In this document: piece by piece, positions 13,466 through 60,451 of the stretch | Numbering within the stretch: position 1 is the first letter of the stretch | Layout of the letters: each line of letters begins with the position of its first letter | Notes under the pieces: model-generated | Database searches by the model: none | What the model saw: only the letters and a program-made list of their open reading frames with translations | What the model was told of the DNA's origin: nothing | Source: Roseibium sp. TrichSKD4 | GTDB lineage: Bacteria; Pseudomonadota; Alphaproteobacteria; Rhizobiales; Stappiaceae | Assembly: GCF_000148725.1 (NCBI RefSeq) | Contig: NZ_GL476319.1 | Span: 124,311-188,310 of the forward strand | Direction of reading: 5' to 3' | Length of the DNA stretch: 64,000 nt | Program-made: the position numbers and the translations under genes

Positions 13466-13601
13466 GCCATTGACACAGCGTTAAATTGAGCGGTATTCGA
13501 ACGCCTAAATATCACTTATGCCCTCCCCAGACCACTAAATTCAGTTACTGATTAATAAATGCCAAATAACACCAAACACGCCCCATATCTCCCCTAATAC
13601 A

Positions 13602-14096: not shown

Positions 14097-14098
14097 TA

Positions 14099-33828: not shown

Positions 33829-33865
33829 GACAAGCCAACGTCACACCAAACCAGTGGTTCTTGCC

Positions 33866-35444: not shown

Positions 35445-35489
35445 CATGTGCTTGTTCAACCACTTTCCACTCCCAAACGAGACACGCTG

Positions 35490-36761: not shown

Positions 36762-36771
36762 GGAGGCATCC

Positions 36772-42969: not shown

Positions 42970-43476
42970 ATGAGATTTTTGCTGACCCTCATGCTGTTCC
43001 TGTATTCGGGAGTTGCAAATGCTGAAAACGCATTCGCGCCCGGAGCCAAGATCGCCTTCTTGGGGCTAACCTTTTTGGACACATCAACCGAGGGCGCTTA
43101 CTTCGGTGCGCGCGATGATGAAGCACAGCGCCTTAGTCTTCTGGAAGAGCTGATATCAGACCGTTTTGGCTCAGAAGGCATGGTCCTTCTGGACCTTGCT
43201 CCCATCGCGGGAAAACTGGAAAACACCACCAATCCGGCGAACTGCTATGGCTGCGATGTGCGTATGGCCAAAGAGCTGGATGCAGACTTTGTGGTGGTTG
43301 GCGTGGTCCAGAAAGTCTCTAATTTAATCATCTCCATGAACCTTGTGATGCGCGATGTAGAAACCGGCAAAGCCGTACGCGGTCGGTCAGTCGATGTGCG
43401 CTCCAATACAGACCAGTCATGGACACGCGGCATGAAATACATTCTCAAAACCACCTTCTTCAAGGAGCAACGCTGA
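42970..43476 (+). CDS. DUF3280-type secreted protein of the XoxF cluster
   Basis: A 168-residue exported protein (leader cut near VANAENA). It has IAFLGLTFLDTSTEG, a CYGCDVRMAKELDADFVVVGVVQKVSNLI block and a C-terminus with SWTRGMKYILK, as in DUF3280/DUF2380 proteins often found beside quinoprotein dehydrogenases. The CxxC pair suggests redox chemistry or metal binding. Function unknown. It starts a four-gene operon (with SRPBCC, propeller and SoxYZ-like genes). Confidence 0.75.
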   Translation: MRFLLTLMLFLYSGVANAENAFAPGAKIAFLGLTFLDTSTEGAYFGARDDEAQRLSLLEELISDRFGSEGMVLLDLAPIAGKLENTTNPANCYGCDVRMAKELDADFVVVGVVQKVSNLIISMNLVMRDVETGKAVRGRSVDVRSNTDQSWTRGMKYILKTTFFKEQR

Positions 43477-43477
43477 C

Positions 43478-44023
43478 ATGATGTTCAGAATATTTGCAAT
43501 GTTTGCCCTCCTGTTGGCACCTGCGATCACCACTTTGGATGCGCAGGCGCATGGGCCAACGCGCCAGAAGGTCACCGTCACCAAAGAGATTGCCGCCCCT
43601 CCCGCCGAGGTTTGGGCAAGGGTTGGAAACTTTCAGGACATGAGCTGGCATCCAGCCGTTCATTCCTCAACCGGCGAAGGCGACAATGCCATTGATGCCA
43701 CACGGGTGCTCACACTCGGGGAAGCCGGCGGCCCCACCATCTCGGAAATTCTCTACAAGTTCAGTGATGCGAAGATGAGCTACTCCTACCGGATCACTGA
43801 CGTGAACGTCGAAGTGCTTCCGGTCACCAATTACTCTTCCCATCTGACGGTCAAACCCGGTGCGGACGGTGGATCGCTTGTCGAATGGCGTGGCGCTTTT
43901 TATCGCGGCTATCCAAACAATGACCCGCCGGAGCATTTAAATGATGAAGCAGCCATCAAAGCTGTAACCGGCGTTTACGAGGCTGGACTGAATGCGCTTC
44001 AAGCCAGTTTTGCAGGCAACTGA
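43478..44023 (+). CDS. SRPBCC family protein, MxaD-like
   Basis: Exported SRPBCC (START-like) protein of 181 residues; signal peptide ends near DAQAHGP. Helix-grip features: VTVTKEIAAPPAEVWARVGNFQDMSWHPAVHSS and a C-terminal long helix. MxaD, a protein needed for efficient electron transfer from methanol dehydrogenase in methylotrophs, is of this type, so a related role with XoxF is plausible. It starts 1 bp after the DUF3280 stop and overlaps the propeller gene by 32 bp. Confidence 0.8.
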   Translation: MMFRIFAMFALLLAPAITTLDAQAHGPTRQKVTVTKEIAAPPAEVWARVGNFQDMSWHPAVHSSTGEGDNAIDATRVLTLGEAGGPTISEILYKFSDAKMSYSYRITDVNVEVLPVTNYSSHLTVKPGADGGSLVEWRGAFYRGYPNNDPPEHLNDEAAIKAVTGVYEAGLNALQASFAGN

Positions 44024-44990
44024 TCTTCTCGTTGCCGCACTGTACGTATGTTTCCCTGCAAGTTCGGTCGCGCTTGCAGGGACTTATGCTTTTGTGACCA
44101 ATCAAAACAGCTCTGACGTCAGCGTTCTCGATCTTGAGTCTCAAACCGAAATTCGACGGATACCCGTGCCGGGAAAACCCGCAGGTGTTGCCGTAAGTCC
44201 GGTCCATGGCTCCTTCTACACAGTCAGTCCAGACAGCAAGACGGTGCACCGGTTTTCGCTAAAGACCTGCGAAGAAATCGCCCACGCGCTTTTGCCCGGA
44301 GGCCCGACAGGCATTGCCGTCGCACATGGTCTTGGCAAAGTCTTTGTTGCTGACTGGTATAATGCGCGCGTCTTCGTGCTGGATGCCACCACACTATCCC
44401 ATGTCGCAGACCTTGCCACGGGCAGCGCTCCAGCCGGTGTTGTCGTTGCTCCAAAGGAGGACTGGCTTGCGTCAGCTGCCCGGGATGCCGATCAGGTTTC
44501 CATATTCGATCTACCCTCGATGAACCTTCGTCATCGGGTAACTGTCGGCACGCGTCCCTTCGGGATCGCAATTGGGCCCGATGAGCGCCTGCACGTTGCC
44601 AATGTCGGCACACATGACATTTCCGTTGTTGATCCGGATACCGGGGCTGTTGTGGCAACCGTTCCGGTTGGCAAGCGCCCCTATGGCGTGGGCTTTGCCC
44701 AGGGGTTGGCGTTCAGCACAGATCAATATGCCGACACCATCACCGTCTACTCGCTGGAGACTTTGTCTCAGCTCACCAAGATCGACGTTGGCGAGTACCC
44801 GGAAGGTATCGAGGCTACGCGAGATGGCAGCCTTGTGGTCTCCACCAACTGGTTTTCAAACACGGTCTCATTGATCGATCCGGCGACACAAACTGTTGTT
44901 GGTGAGATTGAGACTGGAGATGGGCCGCGTGCATTTGGCCGATTTTTATATTCAGCTCCTGAAGGACTTGAACCATGCCGGGACAGATAA
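43992..44990 (+). CDS. YVTN beta-propeller protein, second copy
   Basis: Exported 332-residue propeller. After a leader ending near SVALAG come repeats YAFVTNQNSSDVSVLDLES, VFVADWYNARVFVLDATT and LHVANVGTHDISVVDPDTG. It overlaps the genes on both sides (32 bp upstream, 16 bp with the SoxYZ-like gene), which shows tight operon packing. Only distantly similar to the propeller at 40616-41620, so the two are likely not redundant. Function unknown within the quinoprotein system. Confidence 0.82.
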   Translation: MRFKPVLQATDLLVAALYVCFPASSVALAGTYAFVTNQNSSDVSVLDLESQTEIRRIPVPGKPAGVAVSPVHGSFYTVSPDSKTVHRFSLKTCEEIAHALLPGGPTGIAVAHGLGKVFVADWYNARVFVLDATTLSHVADLATGSAPAGVVVAPKEDWLASAARDADQVSIFDLPSMNLRHRVTVGTRPFGIAIGPDERLHVANVGTHDISVVDPDTGAVVATVPVGKRPYGVGFAQGLAFSTDQYADTITVYSLETLSQLTKIDVGEYPEGIEATRDGSLVVSTNWFSNTVSLIDPATQTVVGEIETGDGPRAFGRFLYSAPEGLEPCRDR

Positions 44991-45820
44991 CCCCTTCCCT
45001 CTCTGCAATGACTGCAGCCTTAGTTTTTGCCGGTTTCCTCTCTCAGGTGGACCCAGCGCAGGCGTTGGAACCTAGCTGGCCTGACCTGAAAGCCTCCCTT
45101 TATGACAATCGCTTCGTTGCCTTGTCCGACGACGTGGTGAAGCTGGAATTTCCCTATCGTTCCAGCAACGATGCGCGTACGGACATCAATGTGCGGCTGG
45201 ATGCACCCGACAGCAGTCTTATTTCGAGGTTCTCGCTTATTCTTGACGAGAACCCGATGCCGGTTTCTGCTGTGATTGATTTCGCCGAACCGATCGATCA
45301 GTTCAATTTTACCGCCACCATGCGTATCAACGGACAAACGCCGATACACGCGGTTGCCGAATTGGACAACGGCCAGCTATTCATGGCCGAGGGATACATC
45401 AAGACCTCAGGTCTGGGCGCTTGTTCCGCCCCGCCGGGCACTGATCCGGTGGAAGCTTTAAAAACTCTTGGCCAAATGGCGCTGCATATTGGTCGGGTCA
45501 AAGACAGTTCCTCACTGATGAGCACAGCACGCGGGGAGACGCAATCTGATCTGGAACTAGATGTCGATATCAAACATCCCAGCCATTCCGGCATGCAAAT
45601 GGACCAAATCAGCCTGCTTTACATTCCGGCCCGCTACGTGGAGACACTGGAGATCAACTTGAATGGCGCGCCGTTTGCGACGATGACAGGCAGTATTTCG
45701 TTGAGCGAAAACCCGTCTGTTTCGATGTCTGTCCCCAGTTCAACCCGCCGCATTAAGGCAAGGCTGACCGATACGGATGGTACGGTGACAGAAGCAGAGC
45801 AAAGTCTGGCGGACTATTAA
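44975..45820 (+). CDS. Quinoprotein dehydrogenase-associated SoxYZ-like carrier, copy 1
   Basis: Exported fusion of SoxY-like and SoxZ-like domains (281 residues; leader cut near AQALEP). In Sox sulfur oxidation, SoxYZ carries intermediates on a cysteine. Here one cysteine lies in LGACSAPPG (Cys150) at the junction of the two domains. The C-terminal half has DIKHPSHSGMQMDQIS and ISLSENPSVSM, typical of SoxZ. It could bind an oxidation product of XoxF; that is inference. Start has GAAGGA. It ends only 3 bp from a convergent rhodanese gene. Confidence 0.86.
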   Translation: MPGQITPSLSAMTAALVFAGFLSQVDPAQALEPSWPDLKASLYDNRFVALSDDVVKLEFPYRSSNDARTDINVRLDAPDSSLISRFSLILDENPMPVSAVIDFAEPIDQFNFTATMRINGQTPIHAVAELDNGQLFMAEGYIKTSGLGACSAPPGTDPVEALKTLGQMALHIGRVKDSSSLMSTARGETQSDLELDVDIKHPSHSGMQMDQISLLYIPARYVETLEINLNGAPFATMTGSISLSENPSVSMSVPSSTRRIKARLTDTDGTVTEAEQSLADY

Positions 45821-45823
45821 AGG

Positions 45824-46420
45824 CTACTTTTCCCTGTCCTGCTCGAACGGTTCGCCTTTTATTTCTTCGAGCGGATGGTCTTCAAAACCCCACCCGTCTG
45901 TGCCCTCAGGATACCATGCGACGTCTGAGTAGCCGTATTCCAGCGCCCGTTTGGCGGCATTCCACGACATCCAGCATTCGTCCAGACAATAGAAAACAAC
46001 CGGATGGGACATGTCTCCCCCGGTTGCCTTTTCCAGCCCGGCTTTGAAATATGCTGCAGTCGCGTCGTCAAGTTTTTCGTATCCAACATTCGGCAACCAA
46101 ATGCTGCCGGGAATGGCGTAACGTGGCTTTTCGCGCCAGATTGTACCTTCGGGCAGGTTTTTAGGCTTTGGTGCGCGGGGAAGGACATCAACAAAGGCAA
46201 CCTGATTGGTCTGCCAAAGTTCAAAAGTCTGGTCCGTTGAAAGAACTTTGCCACCTTTCAGCGTTTTGGGAACCGGGCCGCGATACGGATCGCCGCGATA
46301 CCCTTCGGGTTCCTGCACATCTTGCGCCTGCACACTCACCAATAAAGGAGCGCTTGCGAACAAGGCGAGGACCAACATTGCTAGAACGTTTGATGCCGCG
46401 ATGCCCTCTCTCCCAAACAT
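45824..46420 (-). CDS. PQQ-dependent catabolism-associated rhodanese-like protein (CXXCW type)
   Basis: Exported rhodanese relative of 198 residues, leader cut near SVQAQDV. The active-site loop reads FYCLDECWMSWNAAKRALE, the hallmark cysteine pair followed by Trp of this quinoprotein-associated family. Other features: AFVDVLPRAPKPKNLPEG and IPGSIWLPNVG. A thiol transfer or redox role with the SoxYZ-like carriers is plausible. It begins 3 bp after xoxJ and ends the xoxFGJ operon. Confidence 0.87.
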   Translation of the reverse strand: MFGREGIAASNVLAMLVLALFASAPLLVSVQAQDVQEPEGYRGDPYRGPVPKTLKGGKVLSTDQTFELWQTNQVAFVDVLPRAPKPKNLPEGTIWREKPRYAIPGSIWLPNVGYEKLDDATAAYFKAGLEKATGGDMSHPVVFYCLDECWMSWNAAKRALEYGYSDVAWYPEGTDGWGFEDHPLEEIKGEPFEQDREK

Positions 46421-46423
46421 GGT

Positions 46424-47311
46424 CTATGACCTGGGTTCGTAGAGCGCATTGCCCTGATCGTTCAACAACGGCACGCCAGCATCGATCAAAAGTGCATCAA
46501 TCTCGTCACGGTTGCGGCGGATCAGAGAGTTGAGCTTTCTTTTCCAGACAGCATTTCCCTGACGCACACCCATTGTGATGCGGAAAAACAGCCGAGGTGG
46601 CAGTGTTTCATTGATCAAGGGAATGACGGTCAAATTGGGATGATCCTGTTTGACCAAAGGCCCGGCAATCGGCCCCCACAAGATGGCTGCATCAATATCA
46701 CCGGCCTCGAGATCCGACAGCATGTCGACAGCCGGGGATTCATGACGACGGTCCACCATCAGGTTATAGGGTTTGGCCGCGCCAATAAGTCCATTGCGCG
46801 CCATATGGGTTGAAGGCGGTGATCCGGCGACAATACCAATGCGCTTATCTTTCAACCGATCATCAGAAAGCACGTCCACTGAAGCAAGTTCCCCCTCTTT
46901 GGGGACAATCAGCGTGTAGACAGATGTCATGTAGTGGTTGGTGTTCAGCACCAATTCGTGCCCTTGGGCATAGCCCATCACCACGTCGCACTTGTTGGCT
47001 CTCAATGTGTTGCGAATAAACCCGGTTGCCATTGGAAACCAGGTGTATTGAACCGGCAGTTCCAGCTTGCTGGCAATCAGGTCAGCCAGCTTGTTTTCGA
47101 AGCCGTTTTCATCCTTATCCGACATTGGAGCATTTGCAGGATCGGCGCAGACCCTGAACGCGTTTTGCGATACCAAGTCGGACGTTTGAGACACAGCTGG
47201 ACTTCCTCCTGCCCCAAATGACAAGAGGAAGCCTGCAGCCATGCCGAAACACAGCCTGCGAATGCGTGCTGTTTTCCGCCCGCAACCGCCTGCCTTAACC
47301 GAGGCAGGCAT
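46424..47311 (-). CDS. xoxJ: XoxJ-like quinoprotein dehydrogenase-associated periplasmic binding protein
   Basis: Periplasmic solute-binding fold of ~295 residues. XoxJ/MxaJ proteins are thought to help mature or activate methanol dehydrogenase rather than transport a solute. After the leader come AFRVCADPANAPMSDKDENGFENKLADLIA, WFPMATGFIRNTLRANKCDVVMGY and GIVAGSPPSTHMARNGL. ATG at 47311 has GAAGAAGAA just before it and overlaps the cytochrome gene by 17 bp. It lies between xoxG and the rhodanese gene. Confidence 0.88.
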   Translation of the reverse strand: MPASVKAGGCGRKTARIRRLCFGMAAGFLLSFGAGGSPAVSQTSDLVSQNAFRVCADPANAPMSDKDENGFENKLADLIASKLELPVQYTWFPMATGFIRNTLRANKCDVVMGYAQGHELVLNTNHYMTSVYTLIVPKEGELASVDVLSDDRLKDKRIGIVAGSPPSTHMARNGLIGAAKPYNLMVDRRHESPAVDMLSDLEAGDIDAAILWGPIAGPLVKQDHPNLTVIPLINETLPPRLFFRITMGVRQGNAVWKRKLNSLIRRNRDEIDALLIDAGVPLLNDQGNALYEPRS

Positions 47312-47822
47312 TTTCTTCTTCGCGGATCGCATCAGTCTTCGGTTCCTTCTTGCGCGGACGACCGCGTGCAACTGCGTCTGTCCCCCGAGCCTTCAGGTAA
47401 ACATAGATATCGTTTAGATAGCACATGACATTCGGGTTATCGCCAAAGGCCGGCATCACTGATTGTTCCGATGCGTTGACCCGTTCACGGCCATTCACCA
47501 CGACATCATAAAAATCGTAGTAGTCCATCTCCAGCGCGGACTTCTTCAAGGCTGGAGCATAGGTCGACCCCTCGCCTTCCGGGCCATGGCAGACGTGGCA
47601 TTCCGAATGGTATCGGCGGAAACCCGAATAGGTGGGCCAGTCCACGGTGCCATCTTCCTGCACCTTGTAGGTTGGAAGGTCGTCTTCGGTGAAATACTTG
47701 CCATCTTCGGAATAGGCCGCTTCCACCAAAGCGGGGTCTACTTCAGATTCGGCCCATGCAGCGCCTGTAAAGGCTACGCTTGCAATCAGGCTCGCAGCGC
47801 AAAGTATCTTGAGGTCTTGCAT
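47295..47822 (-). CDS. xoxG: c-type cytochrome XoxG, methanol metabolism-related
   Basis: Periplasmic monohaem cytochrome that accepts electrons from XoxF. The 175-residue precursor has a leader (cut near AWAESE), one haem site CHVCH (Cys75, Cys78, His79) and a likely axial Met in SVMPAFG. Two extra cysteines (VMCYLND and NACLG) match the four-cysteine methanol-related subfamily. GGGAG precedes ATG at 47822. It follows xoxF by 145 bp with a strong hairpin between them. Confidence 0.92.
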   Translation of the reverse strand: MQDLKILCAASLIASVAFTGAAWAESEVDPALVEAAYSEDGKYFTEDDLPTYKVQEDGTVDWPTYSGFRRYHSECHVCHGPEGEGSTYAPALKKSALEMDYYDFYDVVVNGRERVNASEQSVMPAFGDNPNVMCYLNDIYVYLKARGTDAVARGRPRKKEPKTDAIREEENACLG

Positions 47823-47921
47823 TTTGTCTCCCTTGGATACCGGTCCCGCTACTTCATTCAACGCCATTGCTGTTCAGGCCGTTTGCGGGAGGCATGCGGA
47901 TGTTGGTCATCCGTTCGATGA

Positions 47922-47950
47922 AACCGGCGCACGACCAAAGTGCGCCGGTT
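47922..47950 (-). terminator. Hairpin between xoxF and xoxG
   Basis: Perfect 11-bp stem (AACCGGCGCAC at 47922-47932 with its complement at 47940-47950) and a 7-base loop. On the minus strand it is followed by TTCATC, a poor U-tract. It lies ~20 bp after the xoxF stop, so it likely stabilises xoxF mRNA and partly terminates before xoxG. Confidence 0.75.
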
Positions 47951-47967
47951 CTTTTCAAGGTTAGCCC

Positions 47968-49767
47968 TTAGTTCGGCAGACTGAAGACTGTCAGCTGACC
48001 ACCCAGAGCGGTGTAGTCGCTAAGCGCTGCATAGCCGCCCACAGCACCCAGACCATCATTCGGGTTGGTCAAACCAGCTGCCAGACCGATACCGGCCCAA
48101 CCGCCAACACCTGACAGAACAGCAACATATTGCTTGCCACCGTGGGTGTAGGTCATGACGTTACCGATGATGCCGGATGGGGTCTTGAACTTGTAAAGCT
48201 CTTCACCCGTCGTGGAATCCACAGCCTTCAGGTAGCCTTCAAGTGTGCCGTAGAAGACAATATCGCCGGCAGTTGCCAAGGCACCAGACCAGACAGAGAA
48301 CTGCTCTGGCAGAGACCAGACGATTTCACCCTTGATGTTGTCCCAGGCAATGAAGTTACCCATGCCGCCATGGCTATCCGGTGCCGGATACATGGACAGG
48401 GTCGCTCCAACATAAGGTTGACCAGCTGTGTAGCTCACGCGGAACGGCTCGTAGTCCATGCACACGTGGTTGGTCGGGACATAGAACAGGCCGGACTTCG
48501 GAGAGAATGAAGCTGGCTGCTGGTCCTTGGAACCAAGAGCCGCCGGGCAGATGCCGGTGGAGTTCACGTCTTCGCCGTTTTGCTCAGTAGAGTACTGTGC
48601 AACGACCTGAGGACGGCCATATTGATCGGAGTTCTTGTCCATTTCAACATGGGTGGCCCAGTTCACAACCGGGTCGAACTTCTCGGCCACCAACAGCTCG
48701 CCTGAAACGCGGTCGAGAGTGTAGCCAAAGCCGTTCCGATCAAAGTGGGTCAGAAGCTTGCGGGTTTCGCCGTTCACTTCCTGCTCGGTGAGGATCATCT
48801 CGTTGATCCCGTCGAAGTCCCACTCATCATGCGGTGTCATCTGGTAGAACCACTTCGCCATGCCTGTGTCGGCATCACGGGCCATGATGGTCATGGACCA
48901 ACGGTTGTCGCCAGGGCGCTGAGCCGGGTTCCAGGTCGACGGGTTACCGGTTCCGTAATAGATGAGGTTTTCTTCCGCATCGTAGGAATACCAGCCCCAT
49001 GTGGTGCCGCCACCGATCTTCCACTGATCACCTTCCCAGGTGTTCAGACCGGAATCGACGCCAACCGGCTTGCCCAGATGGGTGGTCTTTTCCGGATCAA
49101 CAAGAATATCGCTGTCAGGCCCCATGGAATAAGCACGCCAAGCCTGAGAACCGTCTGCGAGATTGTAGGCAGTGACAGAACCGCGGACACCGAATTCACC
49201 ACCAGAGATACCGACAATCACCTTGTCGCCAACTGGCATCACGGTTGCTGTGTTGGTTTCACCGATAGACGGATCACCGTTTACGACGCTCCAGACCTCT
49301 GCTCCGGTTTTCGCATCCAATGCGACGACCTTAGTGTCGGCTTGGTGCAAAAGGATCTTGCCATCGGCATAGGCCACACCACGGTTGACCGTGTCACAGC
49401 ACATCACCGGAATGACATTTGTGTCCTGCTTAGGCTCGTATTTCCAGATGATCTTGCCTTCATTTGCCAGATCAAGAGCGTAGACAGTGTTCGGGAACGG
49501 CGTATGGACATACATCACATCGCCGATGACCAACGGAGAGCCTTCGTGACCGCGAAGAACACCCGTCGAGAAAGTCCATGCGACTTGCATGTCTCCGACA
49601 TTGTCCTTGTTGATCTGCTCAAGTTTGGAATAGCGCTGGTTCTTGTAGTCACCAGTCTGAATCACCCATTGGTTCGGGTCATCCATCATTTTCTGCAGGT
49701 TGGCATCTGCCTGCGCAAGACCTGCGCTAAAGCAGATCGCTGTTGCAGCAAGAAGTATTCGTTTCAT
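47968..49767 (-). CDS. xoxF: Lanthanide-dependent methanol dehydrogenase XoxF
   Basis: Periplasmic PQQ quinoprotein that oxidises methanol (and often other short alcohols or formaldehyde). The 599-residue precursor has a leader cut near AQADAN, the adjacent cysteines VMCCDTV (Cys123-124), a ligand Glu in SGGEFG, Asn in GTGNPS, and [12 protein letters not shown] with catalytic Asp317 and the extra Asp319 that marks lanthanide enzymes; calcium MxaF has Ala there. No mxaF/mxaI genes are present. GGGAGG is the ribosome site. Followed by xoxG and xoxJ, preceded by the formaldehyde genes. Confidence 0.96.
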
Positions 49768-49936
49768 ACTTTCCTCCCAATAATTCACGGTACAAACGCG
49801 TCTCAAGGCCAGGAAGCGGCCCGGAAACAAAACTGTTTGACTTCATTCCCCCCAAGTTCTGATCGTTCTCCTTTGTGTCGGCAGTGCCGAGTTCATTCAG
49901 CAGCAGGCTCCTCCCCCGCCGCCGAAGCTCCAATGC

Positions 49937-50791
49937 TCAGCCCCCCAGGCCGAGATGATCGAGTTCGTAAAGCCGCTCTGCGTGCCATGCGACGTGGTCG
50001 CGGGCGAAGGTGGCGACGAAGTAGTAGGAATGGTCGTAGCCTTCCTGCATGCGCATGACCGACGGCGTGCGGGTCTCTGCCAGGGCTGCGGAGAAGGCCT
50101 CCGGCTTTAGAAGATCCAGGAACTGGTCGCTCGCCCCCTGATCAATCAGGATATCGCTGTGCCAGCCCTTTTCCTTCAAGAGAAACGTGGCGTCATGCCC
50201 TGCCCAGGCAGCTTCATCAGAGCCGAGATAAGCGCCCAGTTGCTTGCGCCCCCAGTCGCTAGCTGCCGGATTGACAATAGGCGCAAAGGCCGACACCGAC
50301 TGATATCGATCCGGATTGGAAAGCGCGATGGTCAAGGCCCCGTGACCGCCCATGGAATGGCCGGTGATGCCGTGCTGGCCAGACAGCGGCAGCTTTTCAA
50401 CCAGAAGACCCCGCAACTCCGTGACAATGTAGTCATACATCTTAAAGTGCCTGGCCCACGGCTCCTTCGTGGCGTTGACATAAAAGCCCGCGCCCTGTCC
50501 CAGATCATAGGCCTCGTCATCGGCAACACCCTCGCCCCGCGGGCTGGTGTCGGGGAACACAACAGCCAGACCGAACTCCGCTGCATGCGCCTGAAGCCCC
50601 GCCTTGGTCATGGCGTTCTCGTGGGTGCAGGTCAGGCCGGACAGATACCAAAGGCAGGGAACCGGACCGTCCTTGGCCTGCGGCGGCAGATAGACCGCAA
50701 AGGTCATGTCACAAGCGCAGGCCTCCGAGGTGTGCCGGTAGACCGACTGAACACCTTCAAAGCAGCGGTTTTCGGACAGAAGCTCCATCAC
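49937..50791 (-). CDS. fghA: S-formylglutathione hydrolase
   Basis: Esterase-D type hydrolase that splits S-formylglutathione into formate and glutathione, the last step of the glutathione-dependent formaldehyde route. The 284-residue protein has LWYLSGLTCTHENAMTKAG, the nucleophile ITGHSMGGHGAL (Ser146), an Asp in DILIDQGASDQFL and His in EGYDHSYYF. It follows the dehydrogenase gene by 9 bp and precedes xoxF by about 170 bp. No formate dehydrogenase is present in the window. Confidence 0.95.
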   Translation of the reverse strand: MMELLSENRCFEGVQSVYRHTSEACACDMTFAVYLPPQAKDGPVPCLWYLSGLTCTHENAMTKAGLQAHAAEFGLAVVFPDTSPRGEGVADDEAYDLGQGAGFYVNATKEPWARHFKMYDYIVTELRGLLVEKLPLSGQHGITGHSMGGHGALTIALSNPDRYQSVSAFAPIVNPAASDWGRKQLGAYLGSDEAAWAGHDATFLLKEKGWHSDILIDQGASDQFLDLLKPEAFSAALAETRTPSVMRMQEGYDHSYYFVATFARDHVAWHAERLYELDHLGLGG

Positions 50792-50800
50792 ATCCCGTCC

Positions 50801-51913
<1,113 letters not shown>

Positions 51914-52081
51914 GAAAAAACTGCTCCAAAACTCACATATTTGCGCCAAGGTGACGCAGTGTTCCTTTGTACAGTTGACTATAAATTCGGACCCAATCTG
52001 AACAATTAAGACCTTAGTGTGTGTTTTTTAACATGGACAAAAACGCTGTTTTATTTACGCTTTCTGGCGGAGGAACAGTGC

Positions 52082-52708
52082 ATGGCAAATCACGTCAATA
52101 AATACCGTTTTGCTGCGGCTTTGGGTCTTGGTCTGTTGGTCGGATCATCACTGGGAACACAAGCTGCAACATTCAATGATCCGACATGGCCCTGTATTCA
52201 GCGCAAGGTGGAAAGCCTGTCGCTCGGCTTGATGTGGCCCGTTCCTCTTTCTGAAGAAACACCGGTGCTTTCAGGTGATGCCCGTTCGCTGGCCGAACAA
52301 CTGGCGTTGCGGAAGATTTCGCTTGAAGATGCAGAAAGGTTGATCGCACAGTTCGCCTCTTCTCACCCCGACACACCTGCAGACGTCTACGGCCACATCT
52401 TCAAAATTGCCTTTGACAAACTCAACCTGCACCGCAGCCGAATAATCTCGGGAATTGGACGCTATTCGCTGAAACAGATTGCTCTGGCGGACAAGATTGA
52501 TGCCGCACGGTTGAAGATGGACGCTGTCATGGCAAAATCCGAGCCGGACTATGATGCCGTGGACAAGCTTGAAGAAACGCTCGATTGGGACGAACGAATT
52601 TACCGGGATCGGTCCAAATCGCTGACCTATGTGTGTGAGACACCGGTGCTCATTGAACAGCGCCTTTATGCGATTGGGCGAATGTTGCACAAACAGATAA
52701 AGGAATAG
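52082..52708 (+). CDS. Exported helical protein of unknown function in the XoxF region
   Basis: A 208-residue protein I cannot assign. A signal peptide (LGLGLLVGSSLGTQAATF) is followed by a mostly helical body with ALRKISLEDAERLIAQFASSHPDTPADVYG and a charged segment. Two cysteines (WPCIQRK and YVCETP) could form one disulfide. GGAGG lies before ATG at 52082; a longer frame from 52019 is less likely. It diverges from adhC and converges with the metallohydrolase gene 9 bp away. Its location suggests a periplasmic accessory role. Confidence 0.68.
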   Translation: MANHVNKYRFAAALGLGLLVGSSLGTQAATFNDPTWPCIQRKVESLSLGLMWPVPLSEETPVLSGDARSLAEQLALRKISLEDAERLIAQFASSHPDTPADVYGHIFKIAFDKLNLHRSRIISGIGRYSLKQIALADKIDAARLKMDAVMAKSEPDYDAVDKLEETLDWDERIYRDRSKSLTYVCETPVLIEQRLYAIGRMLHKQIKE

Positions 52709-52717
52709 AAGTGCTGT

Positions 52718-53761
52718 CTATTCCCACTCCAGCTCCGTGTAAGACACCGTTGCGTTTCGGGTATTGAAAAGCTCAAACAGTTCCCAGTTCTCAGCTTCGC
52801 TTTTCCCGATCTCTTCGACAGCCTCTCCGATCCGCAAACCCCGCTCAAGAGCGGACCGCGTATCTGCCTCTAGCACGCCGAGGTATTGTTTCAAGGGAGC
52901 AACACCTGCAACCGGTTCGAGCACTGGGCCGCCATGTCCGGGTACAATGTACGTTGCGCGTTTCTCCGCCATCATATCCAGCGCCGTGCGCCACCCCCTC
53001 AATGAGCCGTCGAGCGCCGGAGCATACTCGTGAAACACCAGATCACCCGTAAACAGAATACCACTGGTCCTATCAAAGACAGTTAGATCAGTGGGTGAAT
53101 GGGCGGTCGGCCACACATCAAGGTCCAATACTCGCTCGCCAAGGTCCAAGGTGCTTGGCGCTGGCTCTGGCATCGCCAACGCCGTCCCCAGAAATCCAGC
53201 GGGTGTCATCAGATTCGAAAAACCGGCGTGGTATGCCTCTCCCCGGTCCTGCAGGGCGCGTTTCAAATCCGGATGTCCGACAATCTTTGCACCGACGTCT
53301 GCAAACACGGATGCGCCATAAACGTGGTCCGGGTGCATGTGAGTGAGGATTACAGTCGAGATGTGCAAATCACTGATTGTCCGGATTGCGCGATAAAGGT
53401 CCTCACCAACTTTTCTGGAACCGCCTGTATCGATGACGGCAATTTCACTTTCACCGATTACGACGCCAATATTAGATACATCACCGAGGTTGGATGGGTT
53501 TGGCTCATCTATTGCACCCAAATGCACAAAAACACCCGGCTCGACTTCGATAAGCGACAGCCCATCCGGCATTTCGCGGCAGGCCGCTCTGCCAACCGAA
53601 ATCTCGGCTTCATTGATGGTCAAAGAACGGGAGTTGATGTCCGTCAACTTGCTCTCGCACTGGTCCAGACGATGAGTCTCATGCCCTGGAATCAACTGGC
53701 TGCGGCAGATGTCAGGATCTCCGACTAGGCAGATTGTGACTATGATTTCAAACATGTACAC
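52718..53761 (-). CDS. Quinoprotein relay system zinc metallohydrolase (SoxH-like, type 2)
   Basis: Exported metallo-beta-lactamase-fold hydrolase, 347 residues. The zinc motif is VILTHMHPDHVYGASVF (HxHxDH); further ligands lie in WPTAHSPTDLTVF, FTGDLVFHEY and YIVPGHGGPV. A cysteine-containing N-terminal segment (CLVGDPDIC) after a weak leader is characteristic of this quinoprotein-associated family. In context with SoxYZ-like carriers it may release a carrier-bound intermediate, as proposed for SoxH-type enzymes. It diverges from SoxYZ-like copy 2. Confidence 0.88.
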   Translation of the reverse strand: MYMFEIIVTICLVGDPDICRSQLIPGHETHRLDQCESKLTDINSRSLTINEAEISVGRAACREMPDGLSLIEVEPGVFVHLGAIDEPNPSNLGDVSNIGVVIGESEIAVIDTGGSRKVGEDLYRAIRTISDLHISTVILTHMHPDHVYGASVFADVGAKIVGHPDLKRALQDRGEAYHAGFSNLMTPAGFLGTALAMPEPAPSTLDLGERVLDLDVWPTAHSPTDLTVFDRTSGILFTGDLVFHEYAPALDGSLRGWRTALDMMAEKRATYIVPGHGGPVLEPVAGVAPLKQYLGVLEADTRSALERGLRIGEAVEEIGKSEAENWELFELFNTRNATVSYTELEWE

Positions 53762-54043
53762 GCCTCATCGACACCCTCACCCTTAAGGAATAATCAAAGT
53801 AAATCACATGATCATAAAAATACTTTCACTACAAATATCCATGATCAATACATCCAAAAGGCGTAATTACGCGATTTTTGGTAACATGATATTGATTTCA
53901 CAATTCCAGTTACTTTGCGCAGCTTGTTTTGGATCTAACTCAACAAACCTTGCCTTGCGCAAAGCGTAATAGTCCTGCGTTTCTTCGTTTGCTTTGGGCT
54001 GAGCTAAATACGGGCCTGATCCGAAATCCAAGGGGTGGAACCA
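53762..54043. promoter_or_regulatory. Divergent promoter region with a 12-bp palindrome
   Basis: A 282-bp AT-rich region between the metallohydrolase and SoxYZ-like copy 2, transcribed apart. It holds the perfect palindrome GCGTAATTACGC at 53861-53872, near the centre, a plausible site for a dimeric regulator such as the LuxR-type response regulator encoded at 59.5-60.2 kb. A related GCGTAAT lies near 53963. No certain promoter boxes are assigned. Confidence 0.4.
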
Positions 54044-54901
54044 ATGACCACAAGCAGCTCTTTGAGTGCTTTTGCCAAGACGTTTACAAGTGCATTTGCA
54101 ATTCTATCCGTTACTTTGATAGCACTGCCAAACAGTGTGGCCGCATCTGACACGCGCCCCAATCCGTTGAGTTCCGAAGGCAGCTGGTCTGATCTTAAGG
54201 AAGACATACTCGGTGACCTGCAGCCCATATTGTCAGATGGGTCTCTCGATCTGGAAGCACCGTACCGTGCCCACGATGCCGCCACTGTTCCAGTTGTTTT
54301 GAAGCAGTCCAGTCCGCTTGCCCCCATGATCGACAAGGCGCTTTTGATCGTTGATGAAAATCCCGCGCCGGTCGCTGCTGAAATGACGTTTGGTCCGGCC
54401 ATGCACCCGATTAATATGGAGATGCGCATCCGGGTCAATCAGTATTCAAATGTGCGCCTGGTCGCGGAAACCGAAACCGGTCCGGTGATGGCGGGACGTT
54501 TTGTCAAAGCATCCGGGGGATGCTCTGCCCCGGCTACCAAGGACCCGGAAGTTGCTCTTTCAACCATGGGCGAAATTCGTGCGAAATCCTTCGGCCCTCA
54601 GGCAGGCGACAGCAGTCAGCGCCGAGAAGCGCAAATCATGATCCGCCACCCGAATTATTCAGGCCTGCAGCGAGATCAAGTCACGCACTTGTTCATCAAT
54701 GCCCACTTCATCAATCATGTTGAAGTCAAGCAAGGTGATCAGACGCTGTTCACAGTTGAAGGGGGAATTTCCCTCTCTGAAAATCCCGTTTTCCGCTTTG
54801 CCTATACCGATGACGGGTCTAAAGACTTCGTGATTTCAGCCGAAGACACTGAAGGCAACACCTGGCGAAAGGTTATCGCCAAAGATGGTTCGTCCAGCTG
54901 A
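54044..54901 (+). CDS. Quinoprotein dehydrogenase-associated SoxYZ-like carrier, copy 2
   Basis: Second exported SoxY-SoxZ fusion, 285 residues, leader cut near SVAASDT. Its carrier cysteine is in ASGGCSAPATKDP (Cys160), the same setting as in copy 1, and the tail again has MIRHPNYSGLQRDQVTHLF and ISLSENPVFRF. The copies differ in much of their sequence, so they may carry different intermediates or work with different dehydrogenases. ATG at 54044 follows GGGGTGG. It converges with the small cysteine protein gene. Confidence 0.86.
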   Translation: MTTSSSLSAFAKTFTSAFAILSVTLIALPNSVAASDTRPNPLSSEGSWSDLKEDILGDLQPILSDGSLDLEAPYRAHDAATVPVVLKQSSPLAPMIDKALLIVDENPAPVAAEMTFGPAMHPINMEMRIRVNQYSNVRLVAETETGPVMAGRFVKASGGCSAPATKDPEVALSTMGEIRAKSFGPQAGDSSQRREAQIMIRHPNYSGLQRDQVTHLFINAHFINHVEVKQGDQTLFTVEGGISLSENPVFRFAYTDDGSKDFVISAEDTEGNTWRKVIAKDGSSS

Positions 54902-54926: not shown

Positions 54927-55313
54927 TTAAAAACACAGAATATCTGCCTCCGCCTGCGCACGGCGTAAGGTCGCAACCAATTCCTTGGCGCTGGCAGCCG
55001 TGCGGAAGAGCGACATGCGTTCTCCGCCCACAAGCTGAAGGGACAAGACCGTTTCAGCTTCCGCGTAGCGTTCATAAGGAAGAATGGAGGCAATTACATC
55101 GATTGAGCAGGCACAGCGGCGCAGCACATCCCGGCTTTGGCCGTTGACGGCCATACAGCCAAAGACATAATCGGCACGCGCTTCCGTTGGATAGTCATTT
55201 GCAATCGTCGCACCACCATCCACAGCGGAGGCGGATAAAGGCAGCGCAGCCAACAAGATAGCCGCCAAGCCTAATACCCATGCCTTGCAGGCGATCTTCA
55301 ATGAGCGCTTCAT
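54927..55313 (-). CDS. Small exported cysteine-containing protein of the quinoprotein region
   Basis: A 128-residue protein with a signal peptide (AAILLAALPLSASAVDG). The mature part has CMAVNGQ, RRCACSIDVIAS and a C-terminal DILCF, giving four cysteines likely in disulfides. Proteins with this layout occur beside quinoprotein and SoxYZ-like genes, but their function is not known. Its start overlaps the end of the upstream gene by 4 bp, so the two are co-translated. Confidence 0.75.
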   Translation of the reverse strand: MKRSLKIACKAWVLGLAAILLAALPLSASAVDGGATIANDYPTEARADYVFGCMAVNGQSRDVLRRCACSIDVIASILPYERYAEAETVLSLQLVGGERMSLFRTAASAKELVATLRRAQAEADILCF

Positions 55314-55975
55314 TCTGTGCCTCCATTCTCAGAAAGCACGATTGAGCTGGTGTAGACGCTGTTTCCGGTATCTGCCTCAAGCGCGTAGTACCAACCGGGA
55401 ACCGCTTCAGACATGGTCACTGTCAGGGCGAGGTCCTCGAACCCCTTCATTCTCTCCCGGTTGGGATCATTCTTGAACGGATAAAGGGTAACTGTTTTAG
55501 CCGGGACCATTTCATTGTCGACCGTAATTTCCGTGTCGTTGATCGGTGTTTTTTCAATCAAGGACGCCTTCACTCGATTTCGGATATAAAATGGGCTTCC
55601 CCCTGCCGTTCCGGCCATATCCCGGATAACGGTTTCAACGAAATACATGATCATCGGATTTCCCACCGTCGCCGGAAATGCCCCGATCTTGCGATACTTT
55701 TCCCCTTGCTCGAAACGCAGATCGGCCATGTCGTCTTCGCCAAAACTCAGACGAACGGTGCCTGTGCTGTGGTCTGCGAGCTCCTGATTGGAGGGAAGCG
55801 CGACCTGCCGGTCATAAGTGAGCTGCTGGCTGCGCGGGAGATTGTCGAGCGTTCCGGTCTTGAACAAAAGGTCATAGGCTTCGGCAGCCCACGAGCTACC
55901 CAACCCAATAGCCATGCCTGCAACAAACGTCGCGAAAAATCGCACACGTTTGGCAATTTTCTGCAACACGATCAT
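55310..55975 (-). CDS. Exported protein of unknown function, quinoprotein region
   Basis: A 221-residue protein with a leader ending near GSSWAAEAY. The mature protein is probably beta-rich: TVRLSFGEDDMADLRFEQGEKYRK, MIMYFVETVIRDMAGTAGGSPFYIRNR and VTLYPFKNDPNRERMKGFEDLALTVTM. The only clue to function is its neighbours. ATG at 55975 has GGGAGG five bases before it; the longer frame to 56035 lacks this. First gene of a two-gene unit with the small cysteine protein. Confidence 0.72.
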   Translation of the reverse strand: MIVLQKIAKRVRFFATFVAGMAIGLGSSWAAEAYDLLFKTGTLDNLPRSQQLTYDRQVALPSNQELADHSTGTVRLSFGEDDMADLRFEQGEKYRKIGAFPATVGNPMIMYFVETVIRDMAGTAGGSPFYIRNRVKASLIEKTPINDTEITVDNEMVPAKTVTLYPFKNDPNRERMKGFEDLALTVTMSEAVPGWYYALEADTGNSVYTSSIVLSENGGTE

Positions 55976-56052
55976 ATGAACCTCCCAATCCACCCAGTGC
56001 CCTGAGGAAACACTGCTATTTCCAGTTTCGGACACTCACAAGAAGCGGTCAC

Positions 56053-56071: not shown

Positions 56072-58324
56072 TCAGGTACCGAAACAGACAATTTTAGGCT
56101 GGTGGGTTTTCCAATCCATCAGTGAGCGCAAACTGGACAGTTTCACTGGCTTGCTGAGGACCGTGAAAGCCTGCTTGCGGCTGGCTTCTTCCAGCTCTCC
56201 CGGCGGGCTGGCCGTGATTATAATCGCCGGAACCCGGCTGCTGGTTTGCCGCCGGATTGCCTTTATCGCCTCAACCCCGTTGTCCGACCCAGTCAGCTGG
56301 TAATCCGCCAAAATGATGTCGGGCGCCATACCAATTTCGCGAACCTGCTCCACGGCTTGCGCAGTTGATGAAGCTGTCAGTACGCTGCCTCCCCAACTCT
56401 CGACCTTTTGGGCTGTGGCGAAAAGCACATCTTCGTTGTCTTCGATAATCAGGACAATCAAGTCCATCGCTTCGGCGTGCGTATCTTGCTCTTCGGCCAG
56501 ACCAACGGGAAGCTCATCAGGAACTTGACCAAATGGAAGCGTAATGGAGAAGCGAGACCCCTTGCCAACGGTTGAAGAGACCGACAGAGGATGACCGAGC
56601 CGCCTGCATGCGCGCTCGACAATCGACAGCCCCAACCCCATACCGTAGTCAGAACTTTTCTCGGATACTCTTGTAAACTCGGAGAAAATCCGGGTTTGGT
56701 CTTCCGGCGAGATCCCGATACCAGTGTCGATGACCTCCAGCACCAATAGGCCGTGCTTGCGTCGGCAACCCGCCAATATCCTCCCGGTTTCAGTATATTG
56801 AATGGCATTCACCACGAGATTTTGAAGCGATCTGAGCAGATAACGCCGGTCACTTTGGACCCACTGGCGACATGGCACGATGCTCAGGTCTATTCCCTTT
56901 TCACGAGCCAGACGCGCATAGTCATCGCGGACAGAGGACAGCAAGTCCCCGATGCAAAATGAACTGATGGAGAGTTCTGAGCCGACAGAATCCAGTCGAG
57001 AAATATCCAAAAGGGCGTGCAACAAAGACTCAATGGAGTCGAATGACCGACCGAGACGGGACACAGTGTCTTCAAAAGGGGTGTCTTGTGTCCCCTCCCC
57101 AAGCGTGGAAATCAGCAGCTTTGCGGCATTGATTGGCTGAAGCAGATCATGACTGGCTGCTGCAAAAAACTTGGTCTTGGACGAAACCGCTTCTTCCGCT
57201 TCTGCTTTGGCTTGGCGCAGTTGCTCATCGATGATGGCCTGCTCCTCGTTTTGCCTGCGCAGACGCTCATTTACCGCAGTCAGTTCACGCGTGCGCTCTT
57301 GTACCATCTGCTCAAGGGTTTCCTTGGAGTGCGTTTCTGCCGTGATATCAAGCACATTCATGATGTAGCCCTTATCGGGCAATCCATGAACGCGAATGTT
57401 CAGAATGTTGCCGTTCACATGGCGCACCATGGTGTCGATCGACCCACGCGATCTCAATTCGTGCAGAATTTCGTCGAAATCATCCCCTGTTTCCAGTCCA
57501 ACCAACAGCCGCTGTTTGCGTGCAAATTCGAGGATCTGACGAATAGCGGTTCCCTTTTGGACCAAAAACAGCGGCAGGTTTAGAAGCTCCCGAAACCGCT
57601 CATTGGTAATGAGCAGTGTGCCCTCTTCGGAGAATGTGCAAACGCCTTGGGTCATGTGATCAAAGGCGGCTTGCAGAAAGAAGCTCTGCTCGTCAATCAG
57701 GCGGTTCTTTTCCAGCCGGTTTTGTCGAACGATCCGCGTGATTTCCGTAGACAATAGAACAGTTCGATTGGCGGAGGCGCTCTTGCGGGTGATCTGGAAC
57801 CAACGGTCACCGCGCAGTTCGAGCACAGATGGTCTATCCAGTGAAAACGATCTGTTGTCGCCAGTTGTGTCCGTTTTGCGACCAGTTTTTGCGACCGACA
57901 CAACGGAAGCGCTGGACTGCAACAGTTCAAAGTAGGTGTCCAGCTCCAGACCGTTGGTGATTTCCTCCTCTAAATCAGGCACTAGCGTCTTGAACTGATC
58001 ATTAAAAACTTCGAGCTCACTCTCTGAAAACAAAGCGAAACCACCCTCCATTGCTTCAAGAGCTTCGGCAAGGTTTTGCTCGGTTTGCTGCCAGGCGTAT
58101 TCTGCGATCTTGAGCTTGTTGCTCGCCCGCCCCAAAGTATCGAGCGCTTGTTCCAGATCGCGGGTTTTCTCCCAAACCTCGCCCTGCAGCGCAATGGCTG
58201 ACTGGAAGAGAGAATAGACCGATCCACCAACCCCATGTTCGCGATTGGCACGGCGGATCAGGGCGTCAATAATTTTCGATTGGCGCGCAACCTGCTGCTC
58301 AAGTGTTTCCTCAGGGTCGATCAA
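56072..58324 (-). CDS. Hybrid sensor histidine kinase (PAS, HisKA, HATPase, receiver)
   Basis: Soluble hybrid kinase of 750 residues. No transmembrane helices are seen. N-terminal coiled coil (to ~90), PAS-like regions (~90-200 and ~220-330), a coiled linker ERTRELTAVNERLRRQNEEQ, the H-box FFAAASHDLLQPINAAKLL (His392), ATP-binding boxes with DTGIGISPEDQTRIF and GMGLGLSIVERACRRLG, and a C-terminal receiver with ILADYQLTGSDNG. It overlaps the FIST gene by 4 bp. The FIST-kinase-LuxR set beside XoxF recalls FlhSR-type regulation of formaldehyde oxidation; the target is inferred. Confidence 0.92.
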   Translation of the reverse strand: MIDPEETLEQQVARQSKIIDALIRRANREHGVGGSVYSLFQSAIALQGEVWEKTRDLEQALDTLGRASNKLKIAEYAWQQTEQNLAEALEAMEGGFALFSESELEVFNDQFKTLVPDLEEEITNGLELDTYFELLQSSASVVSVAKTGRKTDTTGDNRSFSLDRPSVLELRGDRWFQITRKSASANRTVLLSTEITRIVRQNRLEKNRLIDEQSFFLQAAFDHMTQGVCTFSEEGTLLITNERFRELLNLPLFLVQKGTAIRQILEFARKQRLLVGLETGDDFDEILHELRSRGSIDTMVRHVNGNILNIRVHGLPDKGYIMNVLDITAETHSKETLEQMVQERTRELTAVNERLRRQNEEQAIIDEQLRQAKAEAEEAVSSKTKFFAAASHDLLQPINAAKLLISTLGEGTQDTPFEDTVSRLGRSFDSIESLLHALLDISRLDSVGSELSISSFCIGDLLSSVRDDYARLAREKGIDLSIVPCRQWVQSDRRYLLRSLQNLVVNAIQYTETGRILAGCRRKHGLLVLEVIDTGIGISPEDQTRIFSEFTRVSEKSSDYGMGLGLSIVERACRRLGHPLSVSSTVGKGSRFSITLPFGQVPDELPVGLAEEQDTHAEAMDLIVLIIEDNEDVLFATAQKVESWGGSVLTASSTAQAVEQVREIGMAPDIILADYQLTGSDNGVEAIKAIRRQTSSRVPAIIITASPPGELEEASRKQAFTVLSKPVKLSSLRSLMDWKTHQPKIVCFGT

Positions 58325-59481
58325 AACAACGCTCCCTCCCGAGGCGGGTAGAACGCGACACCGACGAATGTCTGGTTCACATGAACGCCGAGATGTTGCT
58401 CGCCGTAAGTGTTGAAGCCCAGCACCTTGTGCTTCTTCAGGATGTCAGAGACTGCTCCTGTCAGGTTTTTTTGATCAATTTCCAAGCGGCGCAACACACA
58501 ATCGAACCCCAAAATAAAATCAGGAGCAACGCCTTGGTCCTGCACCTCCAGCCCTCTTTCCAGCGTGTTCAGGATCTCGGTTCCCTTGCCCAATGTGAGA
58601 ACCAATCCATCATCAATCGCAGACAGGAAACTGAGGCCGCCCTCCTCCACAACCTGCTGAATGGCACGCACATGCCAGCTCTTGCCGTTTCTCACCAGAA
58701 CCGGATTTTCAGCGAAGACCTCGGGAGAAAGATCTTCAACTTTACATCCCACATACCGTGCATATTCCTGTGCAGCTGGAACACCGTTCAGTTCAAGAAC
58801 AACACGCTCTTCTGGATTGGCGTGGGTCACAACCATATGCTCAGCTGTCGGGAGAAAGTGATCAAACCCGAGGCCATGAAATGTCAGGTCGGTTTCAATC
58901 AACAACAGCAGGGCGGCATCATCATGAGCCTTGCCACCATGCAGAACCAGGGTTTCATCGAACGCCAAACCATGGCCCGCCGATCCGCCAAAAACGGGAA
59001 TATCACCCAAACCTGAGCTGATCGCCGCGACCAGCAGGTCTTCCTTTTTGGACAAGCCGTCAGCGATAACCAGCGCGATGCGCCGCCAATTCGCCGTATG
59101 GGGAAACCGCGCTGCAAGGAGGCGCGTTTCTTCAGACACGCGCTCGATGGAGATCGGTGACAAGGGTTTAAACAATGCCGAGGAACAGCGAAAATGTGCA
59201 CGTGGAAAGGCTATAACGACCAAGGCATCGGTTTCATATCCGCTCAGAGAGATCTGCCCAGCCGTTGAACATCCAAAAAAGCTGCTGTTCGGAGCAGCCG
59301 CCTCCAGCTTTCGGGCAAGCTCGTGCGGGTCCAGCTGATCAGGAACAAATGCTAATGCGAAGCATGTCGTCTCCGCCGTGATTTGCGACATCACATCCTT
59401 GACAGCCTCTTCGACTGTCTTTGCCCGAGACACCGCCACCTGCGTCATTGTTGGCTGATTGTCTGGGCGAACGGCTGTCAT
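58321..59481 (-). CDS. FIST domain sensory protein
   Basis: Cytoplasmic FIST N plus FIST C protein, 386 residues, thought to bind small ligands such as amino acids and pass the signal to a partner kinase. Features: FALAFVPDQLDPHELARKLEAAAPNSSFFGCSTAGQISLSG, then LGDIPVFGGSAGHGL, and a C-domain ending VLGFNTYGEQHLGVHVNQTFVGVAFYPPRE. It overlaps the kinase gene by 4 bp and lies 7 bp after the response regulator gene, so all three work as one unit. Confidence 0.92.
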   Translation of the reverse strand: MTAVRPDNQPTMTQVAVSRAKTVEEAVKDVMSQITAETTCFALAFVPDQLDPHELARKLEAAAPNSSFFGCSTAGQISLSGYETDALVVIAFPRAHFRCSSALFKPLSPISIERVSEETRLLAARFPHTANWRRIALVIADGLSKKEDLLVAAISSGLGDIPVFGGSAGHGLAFDETLVLHGGKAHDDAALLLLIETDLTFHGLGFDHFLPTAEHMVVTHANPEERVVLELNGVPAAQEYARYVGCKVEDLSPEVFAENPVLVRNGKSWHVRAIQQVVEEGGLSFLSAIDDGLVLTLGKGTEILNTLERGLEVQDQGVAPDFILGFDCVLRRLEIDQKNLTGAVSDILKKHKVLGFNTYGEQHLGVHVNQTFVGVAFYPPREGALF

Positions 59482-59488
59482 TTTGTGC

Positions 59489-60211: not shown

Positions 60212-60451
60212 CCGTGACGTTCCTCCCAAGGGCAAAGTATCGTAAGGGAAGCAACGGCAAGCAAGATAAATATGATTACGATTGGAAAATTAATATATTA
60301 AAGACGTAACTTTCTTACATTTTACTTATCTTTAGTTGCATTTTAAAAATGAAATACAATCAACTTCATATCAATGACAATCCCAGACTGGCGATAGCCT
60401 CTATGAAACATCGTGACAACATGGCAACAACTCGGATGGCCAACACCCTGC

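Follow-up and report, generated by a model that had tools for sequence, protein, structure and literature searches.

A SoxYZ-like carrier module and a four-cysteine protein associated with lanthanide-type alcohol dehydrogenases, viewed from a Roseibium XoxF cluster

In Roseibium sp. TrichSKD4, a stretch of 64,000 nucleotides (assembly GCF_000148725.1, contig NZ_GL476319.1, positions 124,311 to 188,310 of the forward strand; hereafter the window) contains a Roseobacter-type XoxF methanol-oxidation cluster together with an accessory module that is already known and whose families are labelled ‘quinoprotein relay system’ in NCBIfam (TIGR04557, TIGR04558/TIGR04559 and TIGR03865). The module consists of two SoxYZ-like fusion carriers (A and B), a SoxH-like metallohydrolase and a rhodanese-like protein, and all three component types score above their cut-offs in the window (Table 1). 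XoxF, defined here by a TIGR03075 match and a lanthanide-coordinating aspartate two residues past the catalytic aspartate, carries this aspartate (WDFD) and a single vicinal cysteine pair (CC). The gene order matches that of clusters in Ruegeria, Sagittula and, with one carrier, Sinorhizobium, while the window differs from the NCBIfam system in its two carriers and its CX3CW rhodanese. The first-pass annotation of this DNA had located both fusions correctly, with one cysteine each, and had recognized the hydrolase, the metal ligands of which are intact; it described the set as surrounding XoxF–XoxG–XoxJ, which is accurate except that S-formylglutathione hydrolase (FghA) and the glutathione-dependent formaldehyde dehydrogenase are also enclosed. 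The new elements presented here are the survey counts, the matched subtypes of carrier and hydrolase, and the link between XoxF and a small four-cysteine protein, termed Cys4.

Table 1. Genes of the xox cluster and its accessory module in the window. Cut-offs in bits: TIGR04557, 140; TIGR04559, 280; TIGR04558, 300; TIGR03865, 128; TIGR04488, 125; TIGR04490, 76.
Feature	Position	Strand	Evidence and residues
SoxYZ-like fusion carrier A	44975..45820	+	TIGR04557 168.7 bits; Pfam SoxY and SoxZ; carrier Cys150, GACSAP
Exported rhodanese-like protein	45824..46420	-	TIGR03865 229.8 bits; motif C145-x3-C149-W
XoxJ, periplasmic binding-protein-like	46424..47371	-	TIGR03871 294.5 bits
XoxG cytochrome c	47295..47867	-	TIGR03874 251.1 bits; one CxxCH (CHVCH)
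XoxF lanthanide methanol dehydrogenase	47968..49830	-	TIGR03075 769.6 bits; WDFD at 337, CC at 144-145 (reading-frame numbering)
S-formylglutathione hydrolase FghA	49937..50791	-	TIGR02821 435.7 bits
S-(hydroxymethyl)glutathione dehydrogenase	50801..51949	-	TIGR02818 608.6 bits
Protein with signal-like start, no NCBIfam/Pfam match at E<=0.01	52019..52708	+	likely start ATG at 52082
SoxH-like metallohydrolase	52718..53761	-	TIGR04559 355.1 bits; ligands H141 H143 D145 H146 H221 D240 H276
SoxYZ-like fusion carrier B	54035..54901	+	TIGR04557 267.1 bits; carrier Cys163, GGCSAP
Four-cysteine protein Cys4, signal-like start, no named family	54927..55313	-	C53, C67, C69, C127
Conserved protein beside Cys4, no NCBIfam/Pfam match at E<=0.01	55310..56035	-	profile match in 72/80 related loci

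The only cysteine of each carrier (C150 in A and C163 in B) aligns on the terminal, cargo-bearing cysteine of SoxY in PDB 2ox5/2oxg, which supports the analogy with Sox sulfur oxidation drawn in the first-pass annotation as far as the position of the cysteine is concerned. This column is a cysteine in 193 of the 193 open reading frames (ORFs) that reach it, two further ORFs being cut off, and such invariance indicates that the observation is not due to chance. As in Sox thiosulfate oxidation, the window carriers have SoxY and SoxZ domains by sequence; however, they form a single fused chain, whereas SoxY in that system has a free C-terminal arm. The cysteine is followed by approximately 43 residues in A and 30 in B and then by the SoxZ domain, so that the carrier arm would be a tethered loop with no free end. 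The carriers remain below the cut-offs of true SoxY (TIGR04488, 33.7/48.2 bits) and SoxZ (TIGR04490, 43.6/56.7 bits). Carrier A is placed in a clade of second copies from Roseobacteraceae and Paracoccaceae. At 42970-45820, the genes for a DUF3280 protein, an SRPBCC protein (named after a relative), a YVTN beta-propeller and carrier A lie head to tail, and the SRPBCC/YVTN and YVTN/carrier A gene pairs overlap, as those of a coupled operon would.

With respect to the rhodanese, the family assigned in the first-pass annotation was confirmed, but the motif was not of the CXXCW type. The motif is C-x3-C-W (CLDECW), both cysteines and the tryptophan being invariant in six aligned proteins. A spacing of three residues was found in 72 of 73 rhodanese ORFs (68 by pattern and 4 by eye), the remaining one ending before the motif; the name CXXCW given to the family is thus one residue short. 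A thioredoxin gene follows the rhodanese gene in both carrier–rhodanese operons tested (n=2).

To survey the distribution of the module, a single draw was made of 397 genomes belonging to the same phylum as a Roseibium relative, and these were searched twice by profile. TIGR04557 scored above the cut-off in 68 genomes, 11 of which (G013, G037, G048, G064, G068, G076, G080, G092, G096, G104 and G112) showed in-frame stops or joined pieces, were read as soxY-stop-soxZ pairs and were dropped, leaving 57 genomes with a stop-free fusion. Since TIGR04557 passes on matches resembling read-through soxY-stop-soxZ (as in G013 and G112), in-frame stops have to be filtered out when this family is counted in six-frame translations. 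The pyrroloquinoline quinone (PQQ) alcohol dehydrogenase family was above the cut-off in 116 genomes, including all 57 with a carrier (Fisher p 1.2e-36, uncorrected for relatedness); 59 genomes had the enzyme without a carrier and 281 had neither. The rhodanese was above the cut-off in 46 of the 57 carrier genomes versus none of the 59 enzyme-only genomes, and hydrolase 1 (TIGR04558) in 25 versus none. Of the 32 carrier genomes without hydrolase 1 above the cut-off, 27 encode a relay-type hydrolase no more than 3 kb away from the carrier, whereas G094, G098, G158, G309 and G399 do not. Neighbours were scored by profile in 60 carrier loci from 54 genomes (for three carrier genomes no carrier locus was fetched), clustering with a greedy gene caller having been discarded on account of wrong-strand ORFs. 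Of these loci, 50 have a hydrolase within 3 kb; a rhodanese is equally close in 23, or in 36 if the whole locus is counted, and 34 include a PQQ dehydrogenase. In several genomes, hydrolase, carrier and rhodanese make up a compact operon in a locus without any dehydrogenase. The survey supports a single module of carrier, hydrolase and rhodanese that is linked to PQQ dehydrogenases, with a bias to those of the lanthanide type.

The bias emerged from typing of the fetched dehydrogenases in 98 of the 116 enzyme genomes. In the 182 ORFs longer than 450 residues (180 distinct) from the fetched loci, the lanthanide position is occupied by D in 145, T in 20, S in 14, A in 2 and G in 1. A lanthanide-type enzyme was found in 52 of 55 typed carrier genomes versus 24 of 43 typed genomes lacking the carrier (odds ratio 13.7, p 5e-6, uncorrected for relatedness), and two of the three carrier genomes without such an enzyme among those fetched (G188 and G383) hold unfetched XoxF-like pieces. 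By enzyme motif, the carrier is present in 32 of 36 XoxF genomes, in 21 of 32 genomes with HDGWD/NDGWD enzymes (some of which also have XoxF), in 2 of 10 [RW]EGWD genomes (both also with XoxF) and in 1 of 18 genomes with WD[FY]T enzymes only. From their motifs, we take the HDGWD/NDGWD enzymes to be PedH/ExaA-like.

The same set of sequences bears on a published suggestion, according to which the module serves in forming or repairing the vicinal disulfide of lanthanide-type dehydrogenases, or helps to load PQQ or the lanthanide (PMC12997753). Such a role in maturation agrees with the co-occurrence with lanthanide-type enzymes and with the thioredoxin neighbour. However, the CC pair occurs in all 182 dehydrogenase ORFs, of the lanthanide type or not, while 59 of the 116 enzyme genomes have no fusion carrier; the pair alone thus cannot explain the module, which weakens the disulfide idea. 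A hydrolase would also not be expected in disulfide formation, and we regard this explanation as improbable.

The first-pass annotation had proposed a different role, in which the carrier cysteine could hold an aldehyde or oxidized product as a thioadduct, to be released by the hydrolase, and formaldehyde would be kept from diffusing away. In its fuller form, the carrier thiol would react with an aldehyde to give a hemithioacetal, which the dehydrogenase would convert to a thioester, the acid being freed by the hydrolase. This scheme would be a protein-bound version of glutathione-dependent formaldehyde oxidation, with which it shares the logic of a thiol adduct and a hydrolase, and both genes of that route are in the window; the glutathione route, however, uses free glutathione in the cytoplasm and no protein-bound thiol, and its genes are rarely near the carrier in other genomes (of the 60 carrier loci, 13 include FghA and 3 the formaldehyde dehydrogenase). 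The invariant carrier cysteine and the bias to lanthanide-type enzymes, which can also oxidize aldehydes, are consistent with an aldehyde relay. The hydrolase, moreover, keeps a complete dinuclear ligand set (THxHxDH/H/D/H), a pattern that we take to be glyoxalase-II-like. Owing to this ligand set and to the oxidation of aldehydes by lanthanide enzymes, a relay via an aldehyde thioester is still conceivable. On the other hand, 20 carrier genomes out of 57 gave no match to XoxF above 44 % identity in a direct search, and the module is thus not XoxF-specific. The carrier is also absent from 17 of the 18 genomes whose only fetched enzyme is of the WD[FY]T type, although these enzymes also make aldehydes, and the scheme leaves the rhodanese without a role. 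The window hydrolase, furthermore, has no recognizable signal peptide. Taken together, an aldehyde relay appears unlikely and its formaldehyde form is disfavoured; no aldehyde-carrier proposal for such gene sets was found in the open-access literature searched. The counts narrow the published guesses, in that formaldehyde is not the common denominator of the module and the vicinal disulfide alone is insufficient.

The compartment of the hydrolase is relevant to any exchange with an exported carrier. The window hydrolase belongs to the TIGR04559 side, scoring 160.9 bits on TIGR04558 (relay metallohydrolase 1), below the cut-off. Unlike orthologues with Sec-like or Tat-like starts, the window protein has an N-terminal extension with four cysteines (C11, C19, C35 and C61) and a TGA stop two codons before its GTG start. 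Signal peptides were called heuristically, by a lysine or arginine ahead of a hydrophobic stretch rather than by a signal-peptide program; the window hydrolase has no such residue, and neither does carrier A as annotated. The extension is not peculiar to the window. The comparison covered 123 distinct hydrolases in which the TH.HPDH pattern is preceded by 100 residues or more. A strict pattern of the extension is matched by 71 of them; all 71 lack lysine and arginine up to residue 12, and up to residue 75 there are four cysteines in 70 of them and three in one. The starts of 45 of the remaining 52 were viewed; at least 13 share the extension by eye with a different start residue, and most others have Sec-like or Tat-like starts. 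Since no export signal is recognizable and a stop lies near the start, it is doubtful that the window hydrolase meets an exported carrier by the usual route, and a periplasmic relay with every part exported was not recovered in the window by this heuristic.

Carrier and hydrolase are split into two matching subtypes. In a tree of 82 carriers, built by a quick method with Shimodaira–Hasegawa-like approximate likelihood ratio test support only, a clade of 19 carriers (support 100) corresponds to those adjoining hydrolase 1. The hydrolase subtype labels (19 and 32) require one change on this tree, whereas 200 shuffles required at least 11 (mean 15.5); the count excludes 12 carriers without a hydrolase within 3 kb, one long-branch row and 18 rows (window, L009-L088).

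Cys4 behaves differently from the module. Its profile matched 36 of the 57 carrier genomes and 6 of the 59 enzyme-only genomes, and it was found in 36 of 36 XoxF-motif genomes versus 5 of 62 other typed genomes (p 9e-22). In the direct XoxF search, which covered 54 genomes, these five and G318 also proved to hold XoxF-like genes, with identities of 70 % (G243), 61 % (G332), 63 % (G318), 75 and 68 % (two pieces in G188), 60 % (a broken piece in G383) and 64-84 % (pieces in G224). Hence, all 42 Cys4 genomes have XoxF, including six without a carrier, and in 32 of them Cys4 lies within 20 kb of XoxF. Among the 39 Cys4-negative genomes searched, only G309 showed XoxF-like matches above 50 % (51 % over a long stretch, plus several ORFs of 52-65 % in pieces), the others reaching at most 44 %; with XoxF-like ORFs and no Cys4, G309 is a likely counterexample to the pairing. 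A further 16 Cys4-negative genomes of the 116 lay outside both the typing and the XoxF search. Thus, in nearly all genomes examined, Cys4 goes with XoxF alone, independently of the carrier. It was unmatched in 19 of the 25 carrier genomes with the TIGR04558 hydrolase, the other six of which also hold XoxF; Pseudomonas putida was not among the genomes searched. The Cys4 gene is kept beside carrier B in six plasmid relatives, but not in a PedH-like cluster of Ponticoccus.

Three of the Cys4 cysteines are conserved in 151 of 151 aligned rows and the fourth in all 146 rows reaching it (119 distinct sequences). Cys4 fell into no family in Pfam or NCBIfam, where matches were weak and scattered (best NCBIfam E 0.00058, to a lysyl-tRNA synthetase model), and solved structures yielded nothing useful (E about 0.95). 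A small hypothetical protein of ~110 residues, possibly the same one, has been described in XoxF3 clusters of Acidobacteria (PMC10875860). Viral SoxYZ fusions have been reported (PMC11237559); for the carrier and Cys4, two scans yielded no viral relatives at E<=1e-3, only pattern matches.

Of the explanations considered, we tentatively favour, at somewhat less than even confidence, that the module services the lanthanide–PQQ dehydrogenase by thiol-based protection or repair instead of carrying its product, with Cys4 going separately with XoxF alone. Among schemes that give each part of the module a role, this is the simplest. A thiol-reactive adduct would be captured on the carrier cysteine; the most likely one is a sulfur nucleophile, to which the lanthanide-bound PQQ, a strong electrophile, would otherwise be exposed. 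The rhodanese, through its CX3C pair and in some genomes together with a thioredoxin, would restore the carrier, leaving the hydrolase to cleave any adduct that cannot be removed in this way. Sulfur handling would suit both rhodanese and thioredoxin, and a more electrophilic PQQ would agree with the bias to lanthanide-type enzymes.

Published observations point in a similar direction. The trio occurs in the P. putida ped cluster (PP_2666, PP_2677 and PP_2678) and is conserved in bacteria with lanthanide- and PQQ-dependent alcohol dehydrogenases, and shielding of PQQ from sulfur nucleophiles has been put forward beside disulfide or cofactor maturation (PMC12997753). The ped cluster resembles the window in combining the trio with a PQQ alcohol dehydrogenase and NosP-/NahK-like regulators (PMC12997753), but has PedH in place of XoxF. 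Thiosulfate inhibits growth of Hyphomicrobium denitrificans on methanol but not on formate, and PQQ–sulfur adducts have been proposed (PMC12997753, PMC11237559). In Hyphomicrobium, YeeE-like genes are found near a SoxYZ fusion and SoxH (PMC11582611). SoxYZ fusions accompanied by soxH also occur beside xoxF or a PQQ alcohol dehydrogenase, where they have been suggested to shield methanol dehydrogenase from thiosulfate (PMC11237559).

Alternatively, the carrier might feed an XoxF-linked pathway of thiosulfate or tetrathionate oxidation, like the one put forward for the Advenella thiol dehydrotransferase; a tetrathionate pathway involving Sox and Xox has been reported (cited in PMC12542740; the Advenella enzyme is reviewed in PMC9774590). 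This is very unlikely, given that no SoxB, SoxXA or other Sox enzymes were detected among the genes scanned at 40.6-60.2 kb and that the carriers fall short of the true SoxY and SoxZ cut-offs. Moreover, such fusions have been read as alcohol- or carbon-linked and outside sulfur oxidation (PMC11582611, PMC11237559), the Hyphomicrobium cluster being assigned to alcohol catabolism despite its YeeE-like neighbours (PMC11582611).

Several observations also weigh against protection or repair by the module. Only 28 carrier genomes out of 57 have SoxB above the cut-off, a count that speaks against the sulfur-oxidation branch as well. The sulfur transporter family PF04143 (YeeE) is above the cut-off in 47 of the 57, but by comparison of coordinates no fusion carrier has such a gene within 15 kb; the closest one, at ~18 kb (G163), lies beside a soxY-stop-soxZ pair and SoxB, and sulfur import was therefore rejected as a partner of the module. 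Six XoxF genomes have no carrier (G073, G209, G228, G243, G263 and G332), so XoxF can do without it. The carrier is likewise missing from 11 of the 32 HDGWD/NDGWD genomes, and G057 has a carrier with no lanthanide-type enzyme among those fetched and no XoxF. Transposon mutants of P. putida (RB-TnSeq) showed minimal phenotypes without rare earths (PMC12997753). To these are added the hydrolase without a recognizable export signal and the fact that the co-occurrence counts ignore relatedness among genomes.

Lanthanide alcohol dehydrogenases have been described as environmentally important and as most prominent in methylotrophs (PMC6028718), and there is as yet no settled account of their protection, assembly and coupling. 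The two associations described here may reflect a more general requirement, held with similar reserve, namely that lanthanide alcohol dehydrogenases need thiol partners that calcium enzymes do not: a module shared by XoxF and PedH-like enzymes, and a periplasmic Cys4 for XoxF only. If so, Cys4 would act in XoxF assembly, in PQQ or metal loading or in electron transfer, and would be a general XoxF factor that was overlooked as small and in no named family. Its presence in XoxF genomes exclusively makes it a testable candidate.

The remaining genes of the window are more loosely connected with these subjects. The proteins at 52019-52708 and 55310-56035 are both kept in xox clusters of Rhodobacterales and Rhizobiaceae; the former has invariant WPC and CETP cysteines (four aligned sequences) and a profile match in 76 of 80 related loci. 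Downstream, at 56072-60235, are genes for a NahK-like hybrid kinase, a NosP-like nitric oxide sensor and an ErdR-like response regulator, all below curated cut-offs. Upstream of the xox cluster, 32677-40587 encodes a creatinase-like M24 peptidase and a DAO-family oxidoreductase, with ORFs whose translations resemble sarcosine oxidase subunits, and these genes are a possible further source of formaldehyde. PADLOC returned no matches for five proteins. At 7730-19189 are an RHS-repeat protein and a VgrG-like spike adjoining a DUF4123 protein, an arrangement typical of type VI secretion loci.

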